NCBI RefSeq assembly: GCF_022808175.1 | Contig: NZ_JALGBX010000004.1 | Location: 331,446 to 395,445 of the forward strand | DNA from: Streptomyces sp. AP-93 | Lineage (GTDB): Bacteria; Actinomycetota; Actinomycetes; Streptomycetales; Streptomycetaceae | Direction: 5' to 3' | DNA: 64,000 nucleotides | Shown: positions 26,026 through 47,712 of the stretch, piece by piece | How the letters are laid out: each line of letters begins with the position of its first letter | Position numbering within the stretch: position 1 is the first letter of the stretch | Notes under the pieces: model-generated | The model's input: the letters and a program-made list of their open reading frames with translations, nothing else | Told to the model about the DNA's origin: nothing | Databases searched by the model: none | Translations under genes and position numbers: made by a program

Positions 26026-27486
26026 ATGCATCAAGTGATCTACTCACCGGCAGAGTGGGAGTCCTGGGGACTCGCGTTCAGGCCAGCTATCCCTGAGGGC
26101 ATGCCCCTGCTGTTCGACGACGACCTGCTCTTCGAGGACAGCAACGGCAGACGACCCGCTGTCGTTATCAACCGATGGGCCTGTGAGCTTCCGACCAACG
26201 GTGTTCCGGCGCCGAAGTCGTGGCCGTACTACGTCCGCACGATCCGGGAGTGGCTGGAGTTCATATCCGAACGCGGAGTCTCCTTGTTCGACACCCGCAC
26301 GCGCCTGAAGGCCGTGCTTGGGAGCTACTCGGTGTACCGGGCCCGCGGGCCGATCAAGCATCGCTTCGCGGCGTCTACCTGGAATCAGAACATCGGCATC
26401 CTGGCCGGGTTCTACAAGTGGGCCGTTGGCGAGGGGCTGGCCGAAGCTGAGCCGTTCACGTACCGGCAGGGGGTGTCGACCTTCGCCGGCCACATGAGGA
26501 AGGGGTTGGTCAACCAGGCGCGCCGTCGGCAGGCCAAGCCACACGTGACGATCAAGTACCTCGACGAAGGCTTCTCTGATCTGTTCTTGAAAGGGCTGGC
26601 CGGTCTTGATCCGGATGGGGAGCGTGACCTTGCCTACCGCGGCCGGGAGCTGACACGTAGCGCCGCTGTGGGCCGCATGGTCCTCTCGAGCGGTCTGCGC
26701 AGCCAGGAGTTCACCTATTTGCTCGTCAGCGAGGTGCCGGCGCTTCCGTCACGACGCAGCGCGGTGCCGGTGTCGTTTCCCGTCCCTGAAGGGGTGACCA
26801 AGGGGAGCAAGTTCCGAGAGACGTGGATCGACTACGACGCTCTGGCCGAGCTGTGGTCCTACATCGAACTCGATCGGGTAGCGGCGACCATGGGTTCCTC
26901 GTGGCGTCCGCCGGCCCGGTGGGGGGAACCGCTGATCGTGTCGGAGGCCGGCCATCTCGGCGGGCGGGTGAACGGCCGCAGGGTGCGATGGGCAGCTCTC
27001 GGTCCCGCTGAGCGGCGGCGCCTCGTGGCCCCGAACGGGGGCTCGATGCTCCTGTCGGTCTGGGGGACGGGCGCCCCGTTCACCGCCTGGTCTACCGTTT
27101 TCGCGCGTACTGCGGACCGGATCCGTGAGCGGTACGAGCCGAGATTCCCGCACGTTGCGCCGCATCGGCTCCGGCATTCCATGGCCATGCAGACCATGGC
27201 ACGGCTGGTGCGCGGCTACTACGAGCAGGCTGCCCGTCAGGTACGGGACACCGGTGACGATGCGGCCCTGGCGCACTACCTGCGCACCACGGAACCGTTG
27301 CTCATCCTGCGTGACCTGTTGGGCCATGAGAGCTCCGTGACCACGGAAGCCTATCTGCACCGTCTCGACGTGCTGCGGCTGTTCGAGTCCCTGTACCAGC
27401 GCGTCGGCGAAGAGTACGGACTGCTCGACGACGAGGCCAGCTCGCAGTTGGCGGCCGAGTTCGCCAGCGAATTGGAGCTGGTCTGA
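26026..27486 (+). CDS. Tyrosine recombinase A of the element
   Basis: A 486-residue site-specific recombinase. The catalytic domain carries Arg225 in SSGLRSQEF, the box HVAPHRLRHSMAMQTMAR with the His-x-x-Arg-His arrangement, and the nucleophile Tyr443 in LLGHESSVTTEAYLHRLD. A core-binding domain with FYKWAVGEGLAEAEPF precedes it. Its stop overlaps the next start (TGATG). Base composition is visibly less GC-rich than the flanking operon genes, in keeping with acquisition. It should act together with the next two recombinases in insertion and excision. Confidence 0.88.
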   Translation: MHQVIYSPAEWESWGLAFRPAIPEGMPLLFDDDLLFEDSNGRRPAVVINRWACELPTNGVPAPKSWPYYVRTIREWLEFISERGVSLFDTRTRLKAVLGSYSVYRARGPIKHRFAASTWNQNIGILAGFYKWAVGEGLAEAEPFTYRQGVSTFAGHMRKGLVNQARRRQAKPHVTIKYLDEGFSDLFLKGLAGLDPDGERDLAYRGRELTRSAAVGRMVLSSGLRSQEFTYLLVSEVPALPSRRSAVPVSFPVPEGVTKGSKFRETWIDYDALAELWSYIELDRVAATMGSSWRPPARWGEPLIVSEAGHLGGRVNGRRVRWAALGPAERRRLVAPNGGSMLLSVWGTGAPFTAWSTVFARTADRIRERYEPRFPHVAPHRLRHSMAMQTMARLVRGYYEQAARQVRDTGDDAALAHYLRTTEPLLILRDLLGHESSVTTEAYLHRLDVLRLFESLYQRVGEEYGLLDDEASSQLAAEFASELELV

Positions 27487-29261
27487 TGCCGGCGACCGTC
27501 ACCCTCGAACCTCTCGGACTGCACTGCATTTTCAGTGACGGCTCGGAGATCCATCGGCCCATAGGCGCGCGAAAGGCGATCCGAAACCCGCTGTTGGTAC
27601 GGACTCTTCTGGAAGGGGCCACGGACCTGGTTCATCCCCACGGACGAGTGAACAGCGCCGACTCCGTCAGCATGCATTTCACGGCAATCCGGCAGCTCGA
27701 CACCTGGCTGGCCGACGCCGGATTCACCGGTTCGGCATCCGCCCTGACCCGCTCGGCCCTGGCCCAGTACTGGATGAGTGGGGTGCGGGGCTCTCTGGAG
27801 AGTGCCCAGAAGGCGATGCTTCGGTGCGCTGACGACCAGCAACACCTGCTGGCGCCTGATGTCCGCGCGCTGGTCGATGGCCGCCTGTTCAACACGAACA
27901 AGCGCCACGATCCTCACCAGCCGTACACGGAGACAGAGTGGGCACGGCTGATCCGCACCTGCCGCGATGAGGTCGATTCGGCATACCGCGCGTTCCGCTC
28001 GGCCCGTGACCAGGCCGCCGCGCCCAACGGACACCGTGAGTCTCTTCGCACCCGGCCCGTTCATCACTGGCTGGTCCTCCACCACGGCCCCGAGCCCCTG
28101 GTGAAGGAGATAGGCGGAGACCAGTGGCCCTTCCGCGCGCGCTACGGCATGGGCCTGCGCGCCGTGCTCGATCCCCTGATACCACCGCTGGACGTGATCA
28201 TCGCCTACCGGCTGCTGTTCGGTGCCTACACCGGAGTGGTGCCGGACGGGATCGCGGACCTGGGCGTCGGTGACCTCGACTGGGCCGGCGACGCGGAGAT
28301 CCTCCTGAGCTACGTCAAGGGCCGCACCGCCGCGGAGAGCCTGACCCTGTCGCGGCAGGCTACCCGGCTGCTGGAGCAGTGGCTGGATCACTCGTCGGTG
28401 GCGCGCGGCTTCGCTCCCGATGGCCTGCGGGACGAACTGTGGGTGCGGTTCACTCCCGGCGGTACAAGGAAGGGAGAGCGCTGGATGTCGACGTCTCCCA
28501 CGCAGCTCTCGATCTCGGAGTGGATCAAGAGACGGCAGGCCACAGATGAGCAGGGGCTGCCGCTGCAGATGACCGGCGACGACGGGAAGCCCCTGCGCCT
28601 GCATCTACACCGCATCCGCACAACGCACCACGCGCTCAGGGACCGATCCCACTGGCGCGGTAGCCGGCGCGCCACGCTGGATCCGAACCGGTCGCCCGCT
28701 GTCGAAGGCGATCACTATCTGACGAACACCACACCAGCGCAGACCGTCGAAGTCGAGGACATCATCGCCCAGGCGCAGGGTGATCTGGTGCGGCGGGCCC
28801 AGCCACCGGTGGTGCTGGCCACCGGCGAGGTCACCGAGCTGGTCCGCGACTACCCCCAGCATGTCGCCCGGCTCGGCCTGGACGACACCGCGCTGGCCCA
28901 GTTGCTGTCCGGCGAGCGGGACGTGTTCACGGCGGCGTGCGGGGACCAGCTCTCGGGCCTGCACGGCCCGAAGGGCCAGCCCTGCCCCGCCCGGCCCTGG
29001 GTGTGCCTACTGTGTCCGCTCGCTCTGTTCACCCCACGCCACCTGCCGAACCTGATGAGGCTGCGGGGCTTCTTCTCACGCCAGTGGCAGCAGATGACCA
29101 CGAATGAGTTCATGCCCGTCTTCGGCCCCTACGCCCACCGCCTCGACGTCATCCTCGCCCCAGGCATCCACTTCACCGAACGCGCCCTCCAGGCCGCCGC
29201 GGCCGAGACCCCCGATACCGACGACGAGCTCCCCCTGCGCCCCGAGGAGCGCACCGCATGA
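27486..29261 (+). CDS. Tyrosine recombinase B of the element (atypical active site)
   Basis: A 591-residue protein that fills the middle position of the trio. The C-terminal half aligns in order with a recombinase catalytic domain. However, the segment that normally carries the first catalytic Arg reads GAYTGVVPDGIADLGV with no Arg, and the second box is HLHRIRTTHHALRD. A Tyr in SPAVEGDHYLTNT sits near where the nucleophile is expected. Two or three Cys in a CPARPWVCLLCPLALF segment suggest a metal-binding knuckle. It may be structural or regulatory rather than catalytic. It overlaps both neighbours by 1 and 4 bp. Confidence 0.78.
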   Translation: MPATVTLEPLGLHCIFSDGSEIHRPIGARKAIRNPLLVRTLLEGATDLVHPHGRVNSADSVSMHFTAIRQLDTWLADAGFTGSASALTRSALAQYWMSGVRGSLESAQKAMLRCADDQQHLLAPDVRALVDGRLFNTNKRHDPHQPYTETEWARLIRTCRDEVDSAYRAFRSARDQAAAPNGHRESLRTRPVHHWLVLHHGPEPLVKEIGGDQWPFRARYGMGLRAVLDPLIPPLDVIIAYRLLFGAYTGVVPDGIADLGVGDLDWAGDAEILLSYVKGRTAAESLTLSRQATRLLEQWLDHSSVARGFAPDGLRDELWVRFTPGGTRKGERWMSTSPTQLSISEWIKRRQATDEQGLPLQMTGDDGKPLRLHLHRIRTTHHALRDRSHWRGSRRATLDPNRSPAVEGDHYLTNTTPAQTVEVEDIIAQAQGDLVRRAQPPVVLATGEVTELVRDYPQHVARLGLDDTALAQLLSGERDVFTAACGDQLSGLHGPKGQPCPARPWVCLLCPLALFTPRHLPNLMRLRGFFSRQWQQMTTNEFMPVFGPYAHRLDVILAPGIHFTERALQAAAAETPDTDDELPLRPEERTA

Positions 29262-31432
29262 CCAAGATCCCGGCCGCATTCACCGGCGCCGCCCACTTCG
29301 CCGTCTCCGTCCTCGCAGGCGAGGACGTCTGCGCCGCCGCCGGCCTCCCCGTCAAGCCGGGTGCTCCGCGCCCGACATTTGACGAACATGTCTGGGAGTT
29401 CACCGGCATCATCGGGCTGCCTCGCTATCTGGCACGCAGCTCGCAGATCCTGTTCTTCACCGAGATCCTCAACCCTCTGTGGTGGAACGTGGCGAAGGAG
29501 TTCGTCTTCGCCCGCCTCGCGCCCGAGCACCCGTCGGTGCGGGAGCTGCCGCACGCGTACCGGACTCCCGTACTGATCGCGACAGTCCACGGGCGCCTCA
29601 CGAAGCTGACGGAGTGGCTTAACTGGTTGACCGAGCAGGGCGTCGAGAGCCTGAGCGAGGTCACCCAGCAGCACTGCGACGCCTACCTGGAGCTGCGTAA
29701 GAAGGTCCGCGACAAGCACGGAGTCGTCATCCGGGACAGCAGTACCGGATACCGCATGGGCATGGTTGCGGTGATCCAGGAGCTCGCCTACTACACGGAG
29801 CTGTTCTCCACCGATGCCTACGCGCCTGGCTTCCGTCCCTGGGGGCAGCGCACGGCATACGCGGTGGCCGGAGTCGTCAAGCAGTCGGGGAACAAAACGC
29901 CGGCGCTGCGTGATGAGGTGTTCCAGCCGCTCGTCGCCGCGGCCCTGTACGTGGTGGAGGTCCTCGGCCCGCATGTCATTGAGCTCCACGAGCAGTTGCA
30001 GGCCATGTTCTCCGACCGGCCGGGTCGCCACAGTGGGCGGCACTGGAACGTGGAGGTTCCCCGCGCTATCGCCCGTCATGTCGAGGAGGGCGAACCCTTC
30101 GATATCGCGCTGGACCACGTGATCACCCAGCGCCTTGCTGACGGTTGGTCCCCACAGGACCCGCTGCTTCGTGTCAACCTGATCACCCTCGCCCATGAGA
30201 CCGGTCGCCATGCCTTTCAACTGAAGTGGCTGTCTGCCCTGCGCTCCCAGATCGAGGACGCGGTGGCCACCGTCGGTCTGGAGAAGAGGTGGGCACGCCG
30301 GGCGGCGCCAGTGGCTCGCGCCGATGGCCGCGGAGAGGCGCCGTGGGCCTTGCCCCTGAACACCTACGAGGCCCGCGGGCACATTTCCAGGGCGCTCACG
30401 GCGTGCGTGATCGCGCTGGGCGTCCTCACCGGGATGCGATTCAGCGAGCTGACCGAGCTGCCCCTGGACTGCCGGCTCCCGCCCGAGGAGAGCGGCGAGG
30501 GCCGCGTCCGCTACCGATTGAAGAGCAAGATCGTCAAAGGGCGGGGGCTGGGCGGTCAGTGGGACGAGTGGGTGACCATCAAAGAGGCATACAACACCGC
30601 TGGCGTCGCCGCCGCGCTCGCCGATCCAGCTCGCCAGAGCGGCCACCTATTCAAGAAGTTCACGTTCGGCACCCCTTACGATGCGTTCCTGTCATGGGTG
30701 AACGGCCCGGAGGGGCGGCGGCTCGGACTCGCGCCGATCCCGGAGGAACCCGTCAACCTGCGGATGCTCCGGCGGACTCTCGCGGTGGAGATGGCACACC
30801 GGCCCGGGGGCCTGCTCGCGGCGAAGATCCACCTCAAGCACATCTCCGTGGTCACCACGGAGGGCTACGCGAACCGGCCCGGCGGAGCCCAGTCCGTCCT
30901 GCTGGCCGAGTTCGGGCGCGAAGAGCGCGAGCACAAAATGAGTGTCACCCTCGCCGCCTACCAGGACTACAAGAACGGTATACGACCGGCCGGACCCGGG
31001 GCGAAGGACCTCACCGACTTCTTCGAGTCCGTCGACGGCACCGTCGGTCAGCCGGGGGCGCCGAACGTCAAGCGGAGCGAACAGGAGGTGATGAACCTGC
31101 TCGCCAAGCGGGCCGGCATGCTGCACCTTGGGCAGGCGAACCACTGCTGGTTCCTCGACCCGTCCAAGGCACTATGCCTCAAGCTCGCGGGCCGCAGCGC
31201 CAGCGACGCGACGGCACCCCTGATCGGGTTGTGTGACTCCGCCCGCTGCCCGCAGGCCACGCACCACGCCGACCACCGTCCGGTGTGGGCCGCGAGCGCC
31301 CAGAACAAGAAGGTCTTCATCGCCACCATCGGCCGGGCGCAGAACACCGAGAAGGCACGTCTTGCCGCCGACCTCACACGCGACGAGCGGGTGCTGTCCG
31401 AGATCGATGCCGCCGCCGGAACGGGAGCATGA
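29258..31432 (+). CDS. Tyrosine recombinase C of the element
   Basis: A 724-residue recombinase. The catalytic domain has Arg394 in GVLTGMRFSELTEL, a second Arg box NLRMLRRTLAVEMAH, and the nucleophile Tyr537 in HLKHISVVTTEGYANRPGG. About 190 residues follow the Tyr and include several Cys and His (NHCWFLDPSKALCL, CDSARCPQATHHADH), a probable zinc-binding tail. The large size and C-terminal Cys-rich extension match the longest recombinase of Tn554-like trios. The start overlaps recombinase B by 4 bp. Confidence 0.87.
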   Translation: MTKIPAAFTGAAHFAVSVLAGEDVCAAAGLPVKPGAPRPTFDEHVWEFTGIIGLPRYLARSSQILFFTEILNPLWWNVAKEFVFARLAPEHPSVRELPHAYRTPVLIATVHGRLTKLTEWLNWLTEQGVESLSEVTQQHCDAYLELRKKVRDKHGVVIRDSSTGYRMGMVAVIQELAYYTELFSTDAYAPGFRPWGQRTAYAVAGVVKQSGNKTPALRDEVFQPLVAAALYVVEVLGPHVIELHEQLQAMFSDRPGRHSGRHWNVEVPRAIARHVEEGEPFDIALDHVITQRLADGWSPQDPLLRVNLITLAHETGRHAFQLKWLSALRSQIEDAVATVGLEKRWARRAAPVARADGRGEAPWALPLNTYEARGHISRALTACVIALGVLTGMRFSELTELPLDCRLPPEESGEGRVRYRLKSKIVKGRGLGGQWDEWVTIKEAYNTAGVAAALADPARQSGHLFKKFTFGTPYDAFLSWVNGPEGRRLGLAPIPEEPVNLRMLRRTLAVEMAHRPGGLLAAKIHLKHISVVTTEGYANRPGGAQSVLLAEFGREEREHKMSVTLAAYQDYKNGIRPAGPGAKDLTDFFESVDGTVGQPGAPNVKRSEQEVMNLLAKRAGMLHLGQANHCWFLDPSKALCLKLAGRSASDATAPLIGLCDSARCPQATHHADHRPVWAASAQNKKVFIATIGRAQNTEKARLAADLTRDERVLSEIDAAAGTGA

Positions 31433-31433
31433 C

Positions 31434-31913
31434 ATGGCCCGCATCACCGATGAGACCCGCCAGAGCAACGAAGCAGCGATCCGCGCCGTCATGGAGCGGC
31501 TCCTGGCGGGCGACGTGCCCGAAGGCAGGAAGTGCGACATCAAGACCCTGGCCATCTTGTCCGGGGTATCCCGCACCGGCTTCTACCCAAAGAAGACCCG
31601 GGACGACTCTCCGCGGCCTGGCCCGTACCAGCACCTCGCCGAGGAGTTCGAACGGCGACTTGCCTCTCTGCGGGAGGTCGGCGAGATCGTCGACCCACGG
31701 GCCGCGCAGATCGAACGGCTCAAGGCCCAGGTCGCCGATCTCAAGGATCGGGTCACCAAACGGGACGACACCCTGGCGGAGCTCAACGCGTTCAAGACGA
31801 TCGCCCTCTCGCGACTCGCGGCCCAGCACGCCGAGATCACGCGGCTGAGGGAACAGGCGGCCGCCCTCGGTAACGTCCGCCGCCTTCCTGCTGCCCGCGG
31901 AGACCTCAGGTGA
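31434..31913 (+). CDS. Small coiled-coil protein of the recombinase operon (TnpC/GinD position, DUF6262-like)
   Basis: A 159-residue protein whose ATG lies one base after the recombinase C stop. The N-terminal half has a short helix-turn-helix-like region (DIKTLAILSGVSRTGFYPK). The C-terminal half is a long coiled coil (AQIERLKAQVADLKDRVTKR, LRLAAQ-type heptads through ITRLREQAAAL). A protein of this size and plan closes the operon in Tn554 (TnpC) and GInts. It probably helps orient or couple recombination; this is known only for Tn554 TnpC. Confidence 0.75.
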   Translation: MARITDETRQSNEAAIRAVMERLLAGDVPEGRKCDIKTLAILSGVSRTGFYPKKTRDDSPRPGPYQHLAEEFERRLASLREVGEIVDPRAAQIERLKAQVADLKDRVTKRDDTLAELNAFKTIALSRLAAQHAEITRLREQAAALGNVRRLPAARGDLR

Positions 31914-31930
31914 AATTCAGAGCTCGCAGA

Positions 31931-32200
31931 TCAGCAGCTCGCCGCCCGGCCGATGGCGGACACCTCCCGGTAGAGCCGCATCGAGCTGGTGCAGCCCGTC
32001 TGGAAGCGGTGCGGGCACCCGGCGTTGAACCCCAGTGCCGACCTCCGCTGCCTGCCCCGGTGCCACTGAAGGCTGAACAGGTCGCTCAGGGCCGAGTTTC
32101 CTGCCGAGTCCTGGAGCAGGGCCTGCTTGGTCGAGGGGGCAAGGTCTTGCGGGACCTGGTAGCTGGACTGTCCCCACCCGACCGGGGTGTTCGAGAACAA
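31931..32200 (-). CDS. Uncharacterised small protein, possibly the end of a longer open frame
   Basis: The minus-strand frame reads like real protein (FSNTPVGWGQSSYQVPQDLA, NSALSDLFSLQWHRGRQRR, SSMRLYREVSAIGRA), with Trp, Tyr and His contents unlike a shadow frame. A TTG at 32200 is the only start the frame offers. Coding-like sequence extends upstream in the same frame to the TGA at 32312-32314 that ends the resolvase-like gene. It may be a gene started by a rare codon or the detached C-terminus of that gene. I do not recognise the family. It converges on the coiled-coil gene. Confidence 0.4.
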   Translation of the reverse strand: MFSNTPVGWGQSSYQVPQDLAPSTKQALLQDSAGNSALSDLFSLQWHRGRQRRSALGFNAGCPHRFQTGCTSSMRLYREVSAIGRAASC

Positions 32201-45166: not shown

Positions 45167-45172
45167 CCGCGC

Positions 45173-45543
45173 TCAGTGAATGGTCGGATTCCATTGCGCG
45201 GTGTACTCGCGGAACTGCATTGCACCGAACTTCTGGATCCCATGCGGAGCCGCGGATCTGGATTACCCCGGCCCGGTACGCAGTCCAGACGGTCGACGAG
45301 CTCGCCGAGGCGATCGCCGAAGCCCTCGGTCCGCATCTGCTGGTCCATGCCAGCCTCGCTGATCAAAACCTGGCTGACGAGGCCGCCCTTGTCATCCCAG
45401 TAGCCATAGATCCAGCGCCCCGGTTCCCGGGGTGCACCGTTCACGTGCAACGGCGCCCCCCGGAAGGCCGCGAAGAACCCCGGCCCCAGGGGGCGGCACC
45501 GGCGTACAAGAGCGACGAGCGCGCTCCTGCTTCTTTTCGCCAT
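45173..45543 (-). pseudogene. Decayed minus-strand gene of unknown function
   Basis: Two minus-strand frames hold protein-like pieces. One runs RGAPLHVNGAPREPGRWIYG, YWDDKGGLVSQVLISEAGMD and FGDRLGELVDRLD; another ends in IQKFGAMQFREYTAQWNPTI before a TGA at 45173. The frame changes near 45250-45300 suggest a frameshifted or decayed gene of about 120 residues. I do not recognise the family. The flanking sequence 45544-45852 shows no convincing gene. Confidence 0.4.
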
Positions 45544-45852
45544 TCACCATCGCGGTACGCCCGGAGGCGACTTCAGCCGCTCGCCGCAGGTGAGAGACAC
45601 CCGCTCGGTGAATCTGCCAGGGCTGCGACGGGTGGGGCTCAGTGGCCGCGTAGGAGCCCGAGGCCCATATCCCGAGGTCAGCAGCCCAGGCTTCGAGTCA
45701 TATGGGCAGCCAGGCAGTGCAATGGAGCTGGCTTGATGACGGCCTGGCCCAGATCGCTCTCGTGATGATCCATCAGTTTCTGTCAGTGGCCACTGCTACA
45801 TCAATGAGTAGGGACGGGCCGCAACCGCGGCTCGCCGACGGGAGGGGACGTC

Positions 45853-46065
45853 ATGTCGAAGGCGCCGGACGGGTTCCACTACGTAAGCCGGCACATCCGC
45901 CGCAATCCGAAGCCGGGCAGCGCGAAGCGGATGAGCGGCTGGATGATCGCCGGTCTTGCGGCCGGCATCTGGTTATGGGGGCAGGTGTTCGGGTTCGGCG
46001 AGGCCTCCACCACGAACCCGCCCACGCAACCGCAGCCGGCTGTCTCCGCTCCGGCCGCCCGCTGA
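45853..46065 (+). CDS. Small single-pass membrane protein with a TTA codon
   Basis: A 70-residue protein. A basic N-terminus (SRHIRRNPKPGSAKRM) precedes one membrane segment (SGWMIAGLAAGIWLWGQVFG) and a Pro/Thr/Ala-rich tail. Codon 41 (45973-45975) is TTA, which in streptomycetes needs the bldA tRNA. The stop overlaps the start of the nuclease gene (TGATG), so translation of the nuclease may depend on reading this TTA. The RBS GGGAGGGGAC lies 5 bp before the ATG. The function is unknown; the setting suggests a partner or inhibitor of the nucleases. Confidence 0.75.
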   Translation: MSKAPDGFHYVSRHIRRNPKPGSAKRMSGWMIAGLAAGIWLWGQVFGFGEASTTNPPTQPQPAVSAPAAR

Positions 46066-46745
46066 TGGGACGTAAGCGATTGCGCCTTCGGCGTCCTCAC
46101 GGCGCGCCCGAGGTCCTCTCGGCCGCGGTCGTGGCCCTGGCGGCGCTGGTCCTGGCCGTTCGGATGGCCGTCGCGGCCGTCGGAGCACTCAGGGATGGAT
46201 GGCCGTTCCTCCTGGTTCTTGTCCTGCTGGCGGGGGTCATCGGGGCCTGGCGGATGGCGCGTGCCGTGCGCGGTCGGCGGCGTGACGCCGAGAGGCTGGC
46301 TGCGCTGCGGATCACTCTGGCCGAGATCGATGCCCTGGACGACCGGCAGTTCGAGCATGCGCTGCGGGACCTGCTCGTCCGCGACGGCTGGCCGGCACGC
46401 CGCGTGGGCGGCGGCGGTGACCAGGCCGCCGACGTCATCGGCGAGCACACCCACCGTGGGCGGATCGTCGTCCAGGCCAAGCACACCCGGGTAGGCGGGA
46501 AGGTGGGGTCCTCCGTCATGTACGGGGTGAAGGGAACTGCAGGACCGGCCCACCGGGCCGACCACGCCGTCGTCGTCACCAACGGCACCTTCACCCGGGA
46601 CGCCATGGCCTGGGGCGACCGGCACAACGTCCACTGGGTCGACCGGGACCGACTCGGGCGCTGGGCGGAGAACGGCACCCCGCTGCACGAGCTCCTCGGA
46701 CTGTCCGCACGCTCCCGCCGCGCCCGGCTCAAGCGCGCCGCGTAA
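46065..46745 (+). CDS. Membrane-anchored Mrr-like restriction endonuclease (first copy)
   Basis: A 226-residue protein. Two N-terminal membrane helices (LSAAVVALAALVLAVRMAVA and WPFLLVLVLLAGVIGAW) are followed by a PD-(D/E)xK nuclease domain of the Mrr_cat type. The motifs are LDDRQFEHALRDLLVRDGW, the catalytic Asp119 in GGGDQAADVI and the QxK half IVVQAKHTRVGG. VTNGTFTRDAMAWGDRHNVH is the typical C-terminal strand-helix. Mrr-like enzymes cleave modified or foreign DNA. The membrane anchor and coupling to the small TTA gene suggest a defence role, which is unproven. Confidence 0.82.
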   Translation: MGRKRLRLRRPHGAPEVLSAAVVALAALVLAVRMAVAAVGALRDGWPFLLVLVLLAGVIGAWRMARAVRGRRRDAERLAALRITLAEIDALDDRQFEHALRDLLVRDGWPARRVGGGGDQAADVIGEHTHRGRIVVQAKHTRVGGKVGSSVMYGVKGTAGPAHRADHAVVVTNGTFTRDAMAWGDRHNVHWVDRDRLGRWAENGTPLHELLGLSARSRRARLKRAA

Positions 46746-46781
46746 CAGGCACTTCCCCATCATCATCGTCCCGGAGGTGCG

Positions 46782-47492
46782 GTGTTCGACGAAGACGGGT
46801 CACTCGACCCGCTGCTGAAGGTCCTGCTGTACACCGTCCTTGCCCTGGCCATCGGCAAGATGGTGTGGGAGTGGCTCACGAACGACGTCATCCAGTGGAC
46901 CGTGGACCTGTGGGGCCTGGCCGCTGATCACCCGTGGTGGACCGGTCTCATCACCGCCACCGCGCTGCCCGTGATTCTCCTGCTCGGAAAGATCCTTTCT
47001 CTCCTATTCGGCGCCGCCACCTACATCGGTCCGGACGAAAACTTCGCTGCTTCGCCGGACGATTCGACCGACCCGGACGTGCCGACCTTCAAGATGAAGC
47101 AGCTTGCCGCCATGAGTCCGACGGGCTTCGAGCAGGCGTGCGCCGATCTCCTGGTCCGGGACGGGTTCCGCCGCACACTGCGGGTGGGCGGCGCCGGCGA
47201 CCTCGGTGTGGACGTCACCGCCCGTGACCACGACGACCGCCTCCTGATCCTGCAATGCAAGCAGTATCAGAACCCGGTCGGCTCAGGTCACGTGCAGAAG
47301 TACAACGGAACGGCACGCCCACATCATGGAGCAGACGTCCCGATCATGATCGGCCTCAACGGCTTCACCCAGCCCGCGATCGACTTCGCCGCGCACCATG
47401 ACCTCATCCTCATGGGCCGACCAGAGCTGAAGAGGTGGGCTCACGGCCAGCACCTATACGAGGTGCTGGGTATCTCGAGCTCAGCACAGTGA
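46782..47492 (+). CDS. Membrane-anchored Mrr-like restriction endonuclease (second copy)
   Basis: A 236-residue protein of the same plan as its neighbour but divergent in sequence. Membrane helices are at about 10-28 and 50-75 (LITATALPVILLLGKILSLL). The nuclease domain has MSPTGFEQACADLLVRDGF, the catalytic Asp in GGAGDLGVDVTARDH and LLILQCKQYQNPVGSGHVQK. The GTG start is 36 bp after the first copy, behind GGAGGTGC. It is the last gene before the right end of the element. Two different nucleases may act as a heteromeric complex. Confidence 0.82.
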   Translation: MFDEDGSLDPLLKVLLYTVLALAIGKMVWEWLTNDVIQWTVDLWGLAADHPWWTGLITATALPVILLLGKILSLLFGAATYIGPDENFAASPDDSTDPDVPTFKMKQLAAMSPTGFEQACADLLVRDGFRRTLRVGGAGDLGVDVTARDHDDRLLILQCKQYQNPVGSGHVQKYNGTARPHHGADVPIMIGLNGFTQPAIDFAAHHDLILMGRPELKRWAHGQHLYEVLGISSSAQ

Positions 47493-47712
47493 CGCCAGCC
47501 CGAACACCATGCCGCCTGCAGGGCCCCGGCGCACCCGTGAGCCCCGGACCCCCTCCCGGTCCGCCCACGTCGACTCGACCAACACCCGTCCGGCCTTGTG
47601 TGCTTCCTCACAAGGCCGGACGGAGAAAGCATCACGATGCGCCGATGCAACGGGACACCGCCCCAAGCGGGATCCGCTCCGCAAAGCGACACGACCTGCG
47701 GGGGACACGGTC

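Follow-up and report, generated by a model that had tools for sequence, protein, structure and literature searches.

A mobile Streptomyces gene cassette encoding a small membrane protein and predicted membrane-anchored Mrr-like nucleases, headed by a DNA-damage-type promoter motif

Among the closest described systems are the Mrr type IV nucleases (Pfam PF04471, Mrr_cat), with which the two nucleases reported here, B and C, have the catalytic domain and its motifs in common. The cassette differs from these enzymes in having hydrophobic segments in place of a DNA-reading domain, a coupled small partner (A) and a damage-type motif. With Zorya ZorD, Lamassu LmuA and PDC-S02 (PADLOC), B and C have only the Mrr-like nuclease stretch in common, and the partner genes of these three systems were absent from the cassette neighbours read, which are metabolic genes. 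Other membrane-anchored Mrr nucleases of Streptomyces, annotated as ‘restriction endonuclease’ or ‘putative transmembrane restriction endonuclease’, are related to B. Control of immunity by DNA damage or by WYL regulators, as proposed here, appears in the accessible parts of the reports on CapK/CapS (damage-induced immune operons), CapW and BrxR; the name CapW we take to be that of a WYL-domain regulator of immune operons. In contrast to those operons, the cassette showed no regulator gene of its own and seems to rely on the damage regulon of the host.

That regulon would be the PafBC/RecA-NDp DNA-damage regulon of actinobacteria. In the portions available of the papers concerned, the Mycobacterium tuberculosis motif is given as TGTC[AG]G-N10-TA-N3-T (PMC8151990), RecA-NDp is placed ahead of two S. 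coelicolor genes, recA and the UV-inducible SCO6735 (PMC5087735), and single-stranded DNA is said to activate PafBC, redirecting the housekeeping polymerase in mycobacteria (PMC11804915). According to the accessible text of PMC9380542, an initial search did not reveal conservation of the M. smegmatis PafBC motif in S. venezuelae; that paper leaves undecided whether a response of this type exists in Streptomyces. At the present locus TGTC[AG]G-N10-TA stands before A in the right orientation, and PafBC-like genes are present in the source genome. The −10 of the cassette deviates from that of the PafBC regulon (TA-N3-T) in lacking the final T and having an extended −10 TG instead. What is new here is this conserved RecA-NDp-type motif before A. 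A literature search over titles and the starts of abstracts, with subscription journals mostly uncovered and therefore weak as evidence of absence, returned no paper recognisable as describing the module.

The window, that is, the whole stretch of 64,000 nucleotides that was analysed, comes from Streptomyces sp. AP-93 (genome size 9.38 Mb). The cassette occupies about 2.3 kb of it, with the following features.

45244 to 45403, plus strand: left edge common to the closest relatives, read by us as a frameshifted 3′-end remnant of an upstream gene.
45780 to 45802, plus strand: RecA-NDp/PafBC-type motif CTGTCAGTG-N8-TACATC, with an extended −10 TG at 45794-45795 and no final T in the −10.
45840 to 45848, plus strand: putative ribosome-binding site of A, purine-rich, GGGAGGGGA, assigned by eye; the block is alike in six aligned relatives.
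45853 to 46065, plus strand: gene A, small membrane protein of 70 amino acids with one predicted membrane helix.
46065 to 46745, plus strand: gene B, nuclease of 226 amino acids with two N-terminal hydrophobic segments and an Mrr_cat domain.
46782 to 47492, plus strand: gene C, nuclease of 236 amino acids with two hydrophobic segments and an Mrr_cat domain; an optional third gene.

The counterpart of the left edge in G025 (NZ_CP108678.1, L033) falls inside an annotated hypothetical gene of 209 amino acids. A divergent minus-strand gene at about 45170-45543 was considered and rejected, its frame being broken in both close relatives. The start codon of B overlaps the stop codon of A (TGATG) in the source genome, and a stop-start overlap was present in all 18 delimited A/B pairs (17 genus genomes and the plasmid locus L035; start codons assigned by script), 16 of which share one base and two four bases.

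Protein A has a basic N-terminus with a VRxHxRR-type motif and a Pro/Ser-rich tail. It matched no Pfam family above cut-off and none in NCBIfam or PADLOC. No 19-residue window exceeded 1.4 in its Kyte-Doolittle hydropathy profile, so the single predicted helix, to which hydropathy adds little, is placed on the conserved stretch GWxIAGLxAxxWLWGQVFGF. Pfam Mrr_cat was found above cut-off in both nucleases (B 4.1e-19, C 2.5e-22). Residues D119, D123, Q137 and K139 of B are conserved in at least 90% of 21 sequences, and D140, D144, Q158 and K160 of C are invariant in 12; given this conservation, the catalytic motifs are real. C also has a conserved N-terminus, MFDEDGSLDP. AlphaFold models of B and C had a mean pLDDT of 83 and 80, respectively, with a confident nuclease core and a less confident N-terminal helical part. 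The nearest solved folds were those of MspJI, AF1548 and EndoMS, presumably all PD-(D/E)xK nucleases; AspBHI is also among the near folds, and the best match of the C model is EndoMS, a repair nuclease. A C-led profile gave no match to solved structures by sequence. Neither Pfam above cut-off nor the models placed a DNA- or modification-recognition domain beside the nuclease in B or C; as the models contain a single nuclease domain and no other, both proteins appear to be without an evident DNA-reading part.

A sequence-only reading of the window had described a 70-residue membrane protein followed by two nucleases in tandem, with intact catalytic motifs and differing overall sequences. All of this was borne out, B and C being only 34-37% identical over the nuclease part. 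It had also given each nuclease two N-terminal membrane helices. Hydropathy shows two N-terminal segments in B and in C, and the C model has two helices (residues 10-49 and 51-77); in the B model a single long helix (residues 14-79, with a pLDDT by block of about 60-89) makes up the membrane part, so that a hairpin is as modelled for C and only presumed for B. The positive N-termini of A and B suggest an N-in orientation, in which the nuclease domains would face the cytoplasm.

The distribution of the genes was determined in 246 genomes of the genus, the source genome included. A was present in 22. B lies directly after A in 18 of these, and C then follows, downstream and on the same strand, in nine of the 18 (one of them frameshifted, L093). 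Of the other four A genes, that of G071 stands by itself, that of G018 lies at the edge of a contig, and those of G117 and G062 are weak or partial matches. B-family nucleases (E ≤1e-10) are far more widespread, occurring in 192 genomes, and C (E ≤1e-25) occurs in 24, of which 12 remain at ≤1e-50; three of those 12 C genes are without B (G025, G019, G113). A search of 197 genomes of the order with an A profile gave 14 with A; one belongs to another genus of the family, and one, a weak match, to another family. A adjoins B in six genomes that were new to the set, one copy being frameshifted in both genes. With a B profile, 40 named loci were fetched; a strong A was next to B in 17 of them, and six of these 17 repeat earlier genomes. 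A, B and C form a real cassette, more than chance would give. The co-occurrence by which the trio was to be judged is thus clear for A with B and holds in part for C, which joins half of the A-B pairs and sometimes stands without B. Decayed copies were also seen: B of G131, one of the 18 that follow A, has an in-frame TGA (L097), and at L106 (G038) the nuclease motifs are lost and the nuclease has an A-like N-terminus.

Small proteins resembling A precede nucleases outside the cassette as well. In Actinomadura, Nonomuraea and Planomonospora, the gene ahead of the B relative encodes a small protein of the type RYYRRGHWVN...GWLI. Ahead of some Streptomyces paralogues the small protein has a VRAH, YYRRGHW or YHRVRSH motif (L022, L024, L031); at L047 such a protein precedes a C-type gene. 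These proteins had low A-profile scores or were found by eye or by pattern, and the Streptomyces ones are without the promoter motif, so homology to A is only suggested. As a side observation, the A-like gene of four Actinomadura loci (L200, L201, L206, L208) is preceded by a block in which TTCAGT comes after TTGTCnG... or TCGTCAG..., perhaps the local form of the promoter; the upstream block of L206 is only the second-best match.

The sequence-only reading had placed the trio at the very end of an element. Around the trio, DNA of the window aligns to its two closest relatives (G013, G110) only over 45244-47508, with the right stop at 47502-47508. A large mobile element ending at the trio is unsupported, as the common DNA stops at both 45244 and 47502-47508, and the neighbours of the trio are two chitinase-family genes, one DHDPS-family and one enolase-family gene. 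Against the other cassette loci, this DNA aligned only inside the cassette or just upstream, L103 being an exception with one unrelated gene. In most genomes the cassette is flanked by different sequence, which indicates that the unit of about 2.3 kb itself moves. Only small sets of loci have neighbours in common: SbcC/SbcD-like, ATPase and helicase genes recur at four loci, a CorA-like gene recurs at three, and there are a few further twos and threes (gene names by our own reading). Of the matches listed for 61 genomes (the source genome and 60 relatives), none outside the source genome spans both flanks, and no empty site of the cassette was found. A was also found in 20 plasmid records, all Streptomyces and 16 of them S. 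clavuligerus, and in G136 it lies 4 kb from the end of a single 7.79-Mb contig. The gene set is accessory (22 of 246 genomes, different places, plasmids), and it is mobile and conserved. A phage origin was rejected after 50,697 phage records gave no match to B at 1e-5 or to A at 0.1.

Several further observations were made in these genomes. Several open reading frames at 27181-32200 of the window read as tyrosine recombinases or integrases, with no Pfam match at 1e-5. In G104 (L087), genes that we read as Cas3- and Cas5-like are found some 5-8 kb beyond the cassette on its downstream side. Partial A copies in G294 (L173, L176) are mirrored near both ends of the chromosome contig, like a terminal inverted repeat. 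The source genome has a further Mrr-like match (G000:C22:404900-405298, L003) inside an open frame of 1086 codons.

Proximity to known defence genes was assessed with PADLOC over up to 6 kb at 18 of the 22 A loci (near-duplicates L086, L092, L093 and L097 left out) and in 15 of 16 control stretches (near-duplicate L221 left out). Counted as families, of which many kinase models are able to match one protein, the matches numbered 67 among 128 cassette-neighbour proteins and 49 among 119 control proteins; genes came from a simple predictor, the first 25 matches were listed, and the test is coarse. The cassette neighbourhoods show no clear excess of such families over the controls; an association with known defence genes did not clearly emerge, and the idea of a defence island was set aside for want of a clear difference.

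Visual inspection of seven aligned loci first revealed the promoter motif, which then turned up at 19 of 23 A loci. For scoring, the consensus TTGTCRGTG-N8-TA was used with at least 9 of 11 matches in a window from −100 to −60, cut-off and window both being set after the motif had been seen. Thirty-eight A loci were entered and 29 kept after removal of near-identical upstream regions; partial or weak A matches (L104, L105, L173, L174, L176), repeats (L175, L186, L187, L188, L190, L191, L195) and, by an oversight, L179, which has the motif, are outside the count. The motif was found in 25 of the 29 non-redundant cassettes (absent from L096, L100, L102 and L192) against 1 of 478 other predicted genes from the same and control loci. 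It lies about 73-75 bp before A in the window, and in relatives it is conserved at a distance of about 70-90 bp from A. Among the order-search loci it precedes all six A genes that adjoin B (L171 is frameshifted; L175 repeats L171) and is absent at the two partial A copies of G294 and at the weak G254 match. Of the 17 B-profile loci with a strong A next to B, 16 have it; these loci include six from genomes already in the set. The other Mrr nucleases differ in this respect, as the motif was at none of the checked loci that lack A (0 of 12 B-family, 0 of 17 C-family).

The −10 final T is absent in all 25 cassette motifs, and the extended −10 TG is present in 24. Since the T is never present and the TG nearly always is, the −10 of the cassette is a conserved variant and not a random loss. 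Its effect may be low basal activity, or it may reflect a second regulator; with the T absent from 25 of 25, dependence on PafBC is uncertain, and there may be a second regulator at work. On one alternative, which concerns regulation only, the block before A would be the operator of another regulator, overlapping a promoter as well, and not a PafBC promoter. Conservation of the spacer bases near CGCTGC and the uniform lack of the final T would fit an operator, while the match to TTGTCRGTG-N8-TA in 25 of 29 cassettes, where A and G alternate at the position at which they do so in the published motif, argues for a promoter of the PafBC type; we consider the operator unlikely and take PafBC control of the cassette to be the probable meaning of the motif.

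In the source genome, TGTCAGTG-N8-TA was matched at 28 sites and the reversed pattern at none. The final T is present in 27 of the 28 and the extended −10 TG in one, the cassette being the exception in both. A predicted gene lies at most 400 bp downstream at 23 sites; for two of these the site is inside another predicted gene. Ten of the 23 genes, picked as looking recognisable, were scanned for domains, yielding RecA, UvrB, polymerase I exonuclease, uracil-DNA glycosylase, O6-methylguanine methyltransferase, a macro domain, DUF3375, N6-methylase, DUF3670 and an IS605 transposase. The motif thus precedes recA, uvrB, polA, ogt and ung, and it appears to mark a damage regulon in this genome. A PafB/PafC-like pair was found side by side (a WYL/WCX gene and an HTH_PafC/WYL/WCX gene), after a Pup-ligase-family gene and ahead of genes that we read as tatA and tatC. 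Five of the 28 sites precede TnpB-like transposase genes (L115, L125, L128, L133, L142; one confirmed by Pfam, the others by our reading), a hint at damage-linked transposition. The macro-domain gene behind the motif at L140 has a C-terminal part that reads, to us, as uracil-DNA glycosylase.

At one site the downstream DUF3375 gene is jetA, which belongs to a complete type I Wadjet operon, jetABCD (G000:C22:59200-69200, L236). jetA was present in 3 of 81 genus genomes, and in all three the motif lies upstream on the same strand with its final T (L239, L240, L241); Wadjet may therefore be inducible by DNA damage in Streptomyces. A further site precedes a gene for a methyltransferase (PADLOC MTase_II, mad2) in a defence-like locus (L237, G000:C35:18500-27700), which also has a gene for a mad6/PglW-like kinase of 1362 amino acids after a gap of 1.7 kb in the gene calls.

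Our proposal is that A-B(-C) forms a mobile module, inducible by DNA damage, whose nucleases are tethered to the membrane and probably directed against mobile DNA. Single-stranded DNA arising from phage, plasmid or genotoxic stress would activate PafBC, as the conserved motif suggests, and PafBC would bring RNA polymerase to the promoter at 45780-45802, where a poor −10 with an extended −10 TG would otherwise keep expression low. A and B, whose overlap is observed, would be translationally coupled, so that A would be made just before B and could be its cognate partner, holding or placing the nuclease. B, with C where present, would be seated in the membrane with its PD-(D/E)xK domain on the cytoplasmic side; since no DNA-reading domain is evident, the target may be DNA located at the membrane or damaged DNA. 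The benefit would be against invading DNA, whether of phage, conjugating or plasmid origin; a defence role has indirect support, in that the same kind of promoter motif heads the Wadjet operon of the source genome. A damage-inducible membrane nuclease cassette, its purpose left aside, is a reading that we hold with good confidence. The full model, including the defence role, we put at even weight, for it and against it. More tentatively, the cassette could belong to an actinobacterial two-part family of a VRxHxRR membrane protein and an anchored Mrr nuclease, in which the Streptomyces branch, wired to PafBC together with Wadjet, would provide damage-triggered immunity at the membrane.

The module could instead serve DNA repair, its membrane nucleases processing damaged or stalled DNA of the host with no role against foreign DNA. 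It has the motif of recA, uvrB, polA and ung, and the C model is closest in fold to the repair nuclease EndoMS, both of which such a function would explain; a patchy gene set (22 of 246 genomes) found in different places and on plasmids, with decayed copies, is less what it would lead one to expect, and membrane anchoring would be odd for general repair, which leaves the repair reading improbable. We are equally doubtful of a toxin-antitoxin-like arrangement, in which a putative restraint of B by A would end upon damage and B would degrade the cell's own DNA and kill the hypha (abortive infection or plasmid addiction). The small partner coming first with a stop-start overlap in 18 of 18 delimited pairs, the nucleases without an evident target-reading domain and the damage-type promoter motif would all suit it, as against which A and B are under one promoter and C occurs without B in some genomes. 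That B and C are ordinary type IV, modification-dependent Mrr restriction enzymes, as the annotation ‘restriction endonuclease’, the Mrr_cat domain and near folds such as MspJI and AspBHI would have it, is very hard to reconcile with a hydrophobic N-terminus, a single nuclease domain with no recognition domain in the models and a damage-type promoter motif.

If the proposed module is real in the sense described, a common class of ‘restriction endonucleases’ in actinobacteria would acquire a partner, a location at the membrane and DNA damage as its trigger. As repair and defence genes lie behind the 28 motif sites, the existence of a PafBC-type response in Streptomyces becomes directly testable, and these sites suggest that anti-plasmid defence forms part of that response.
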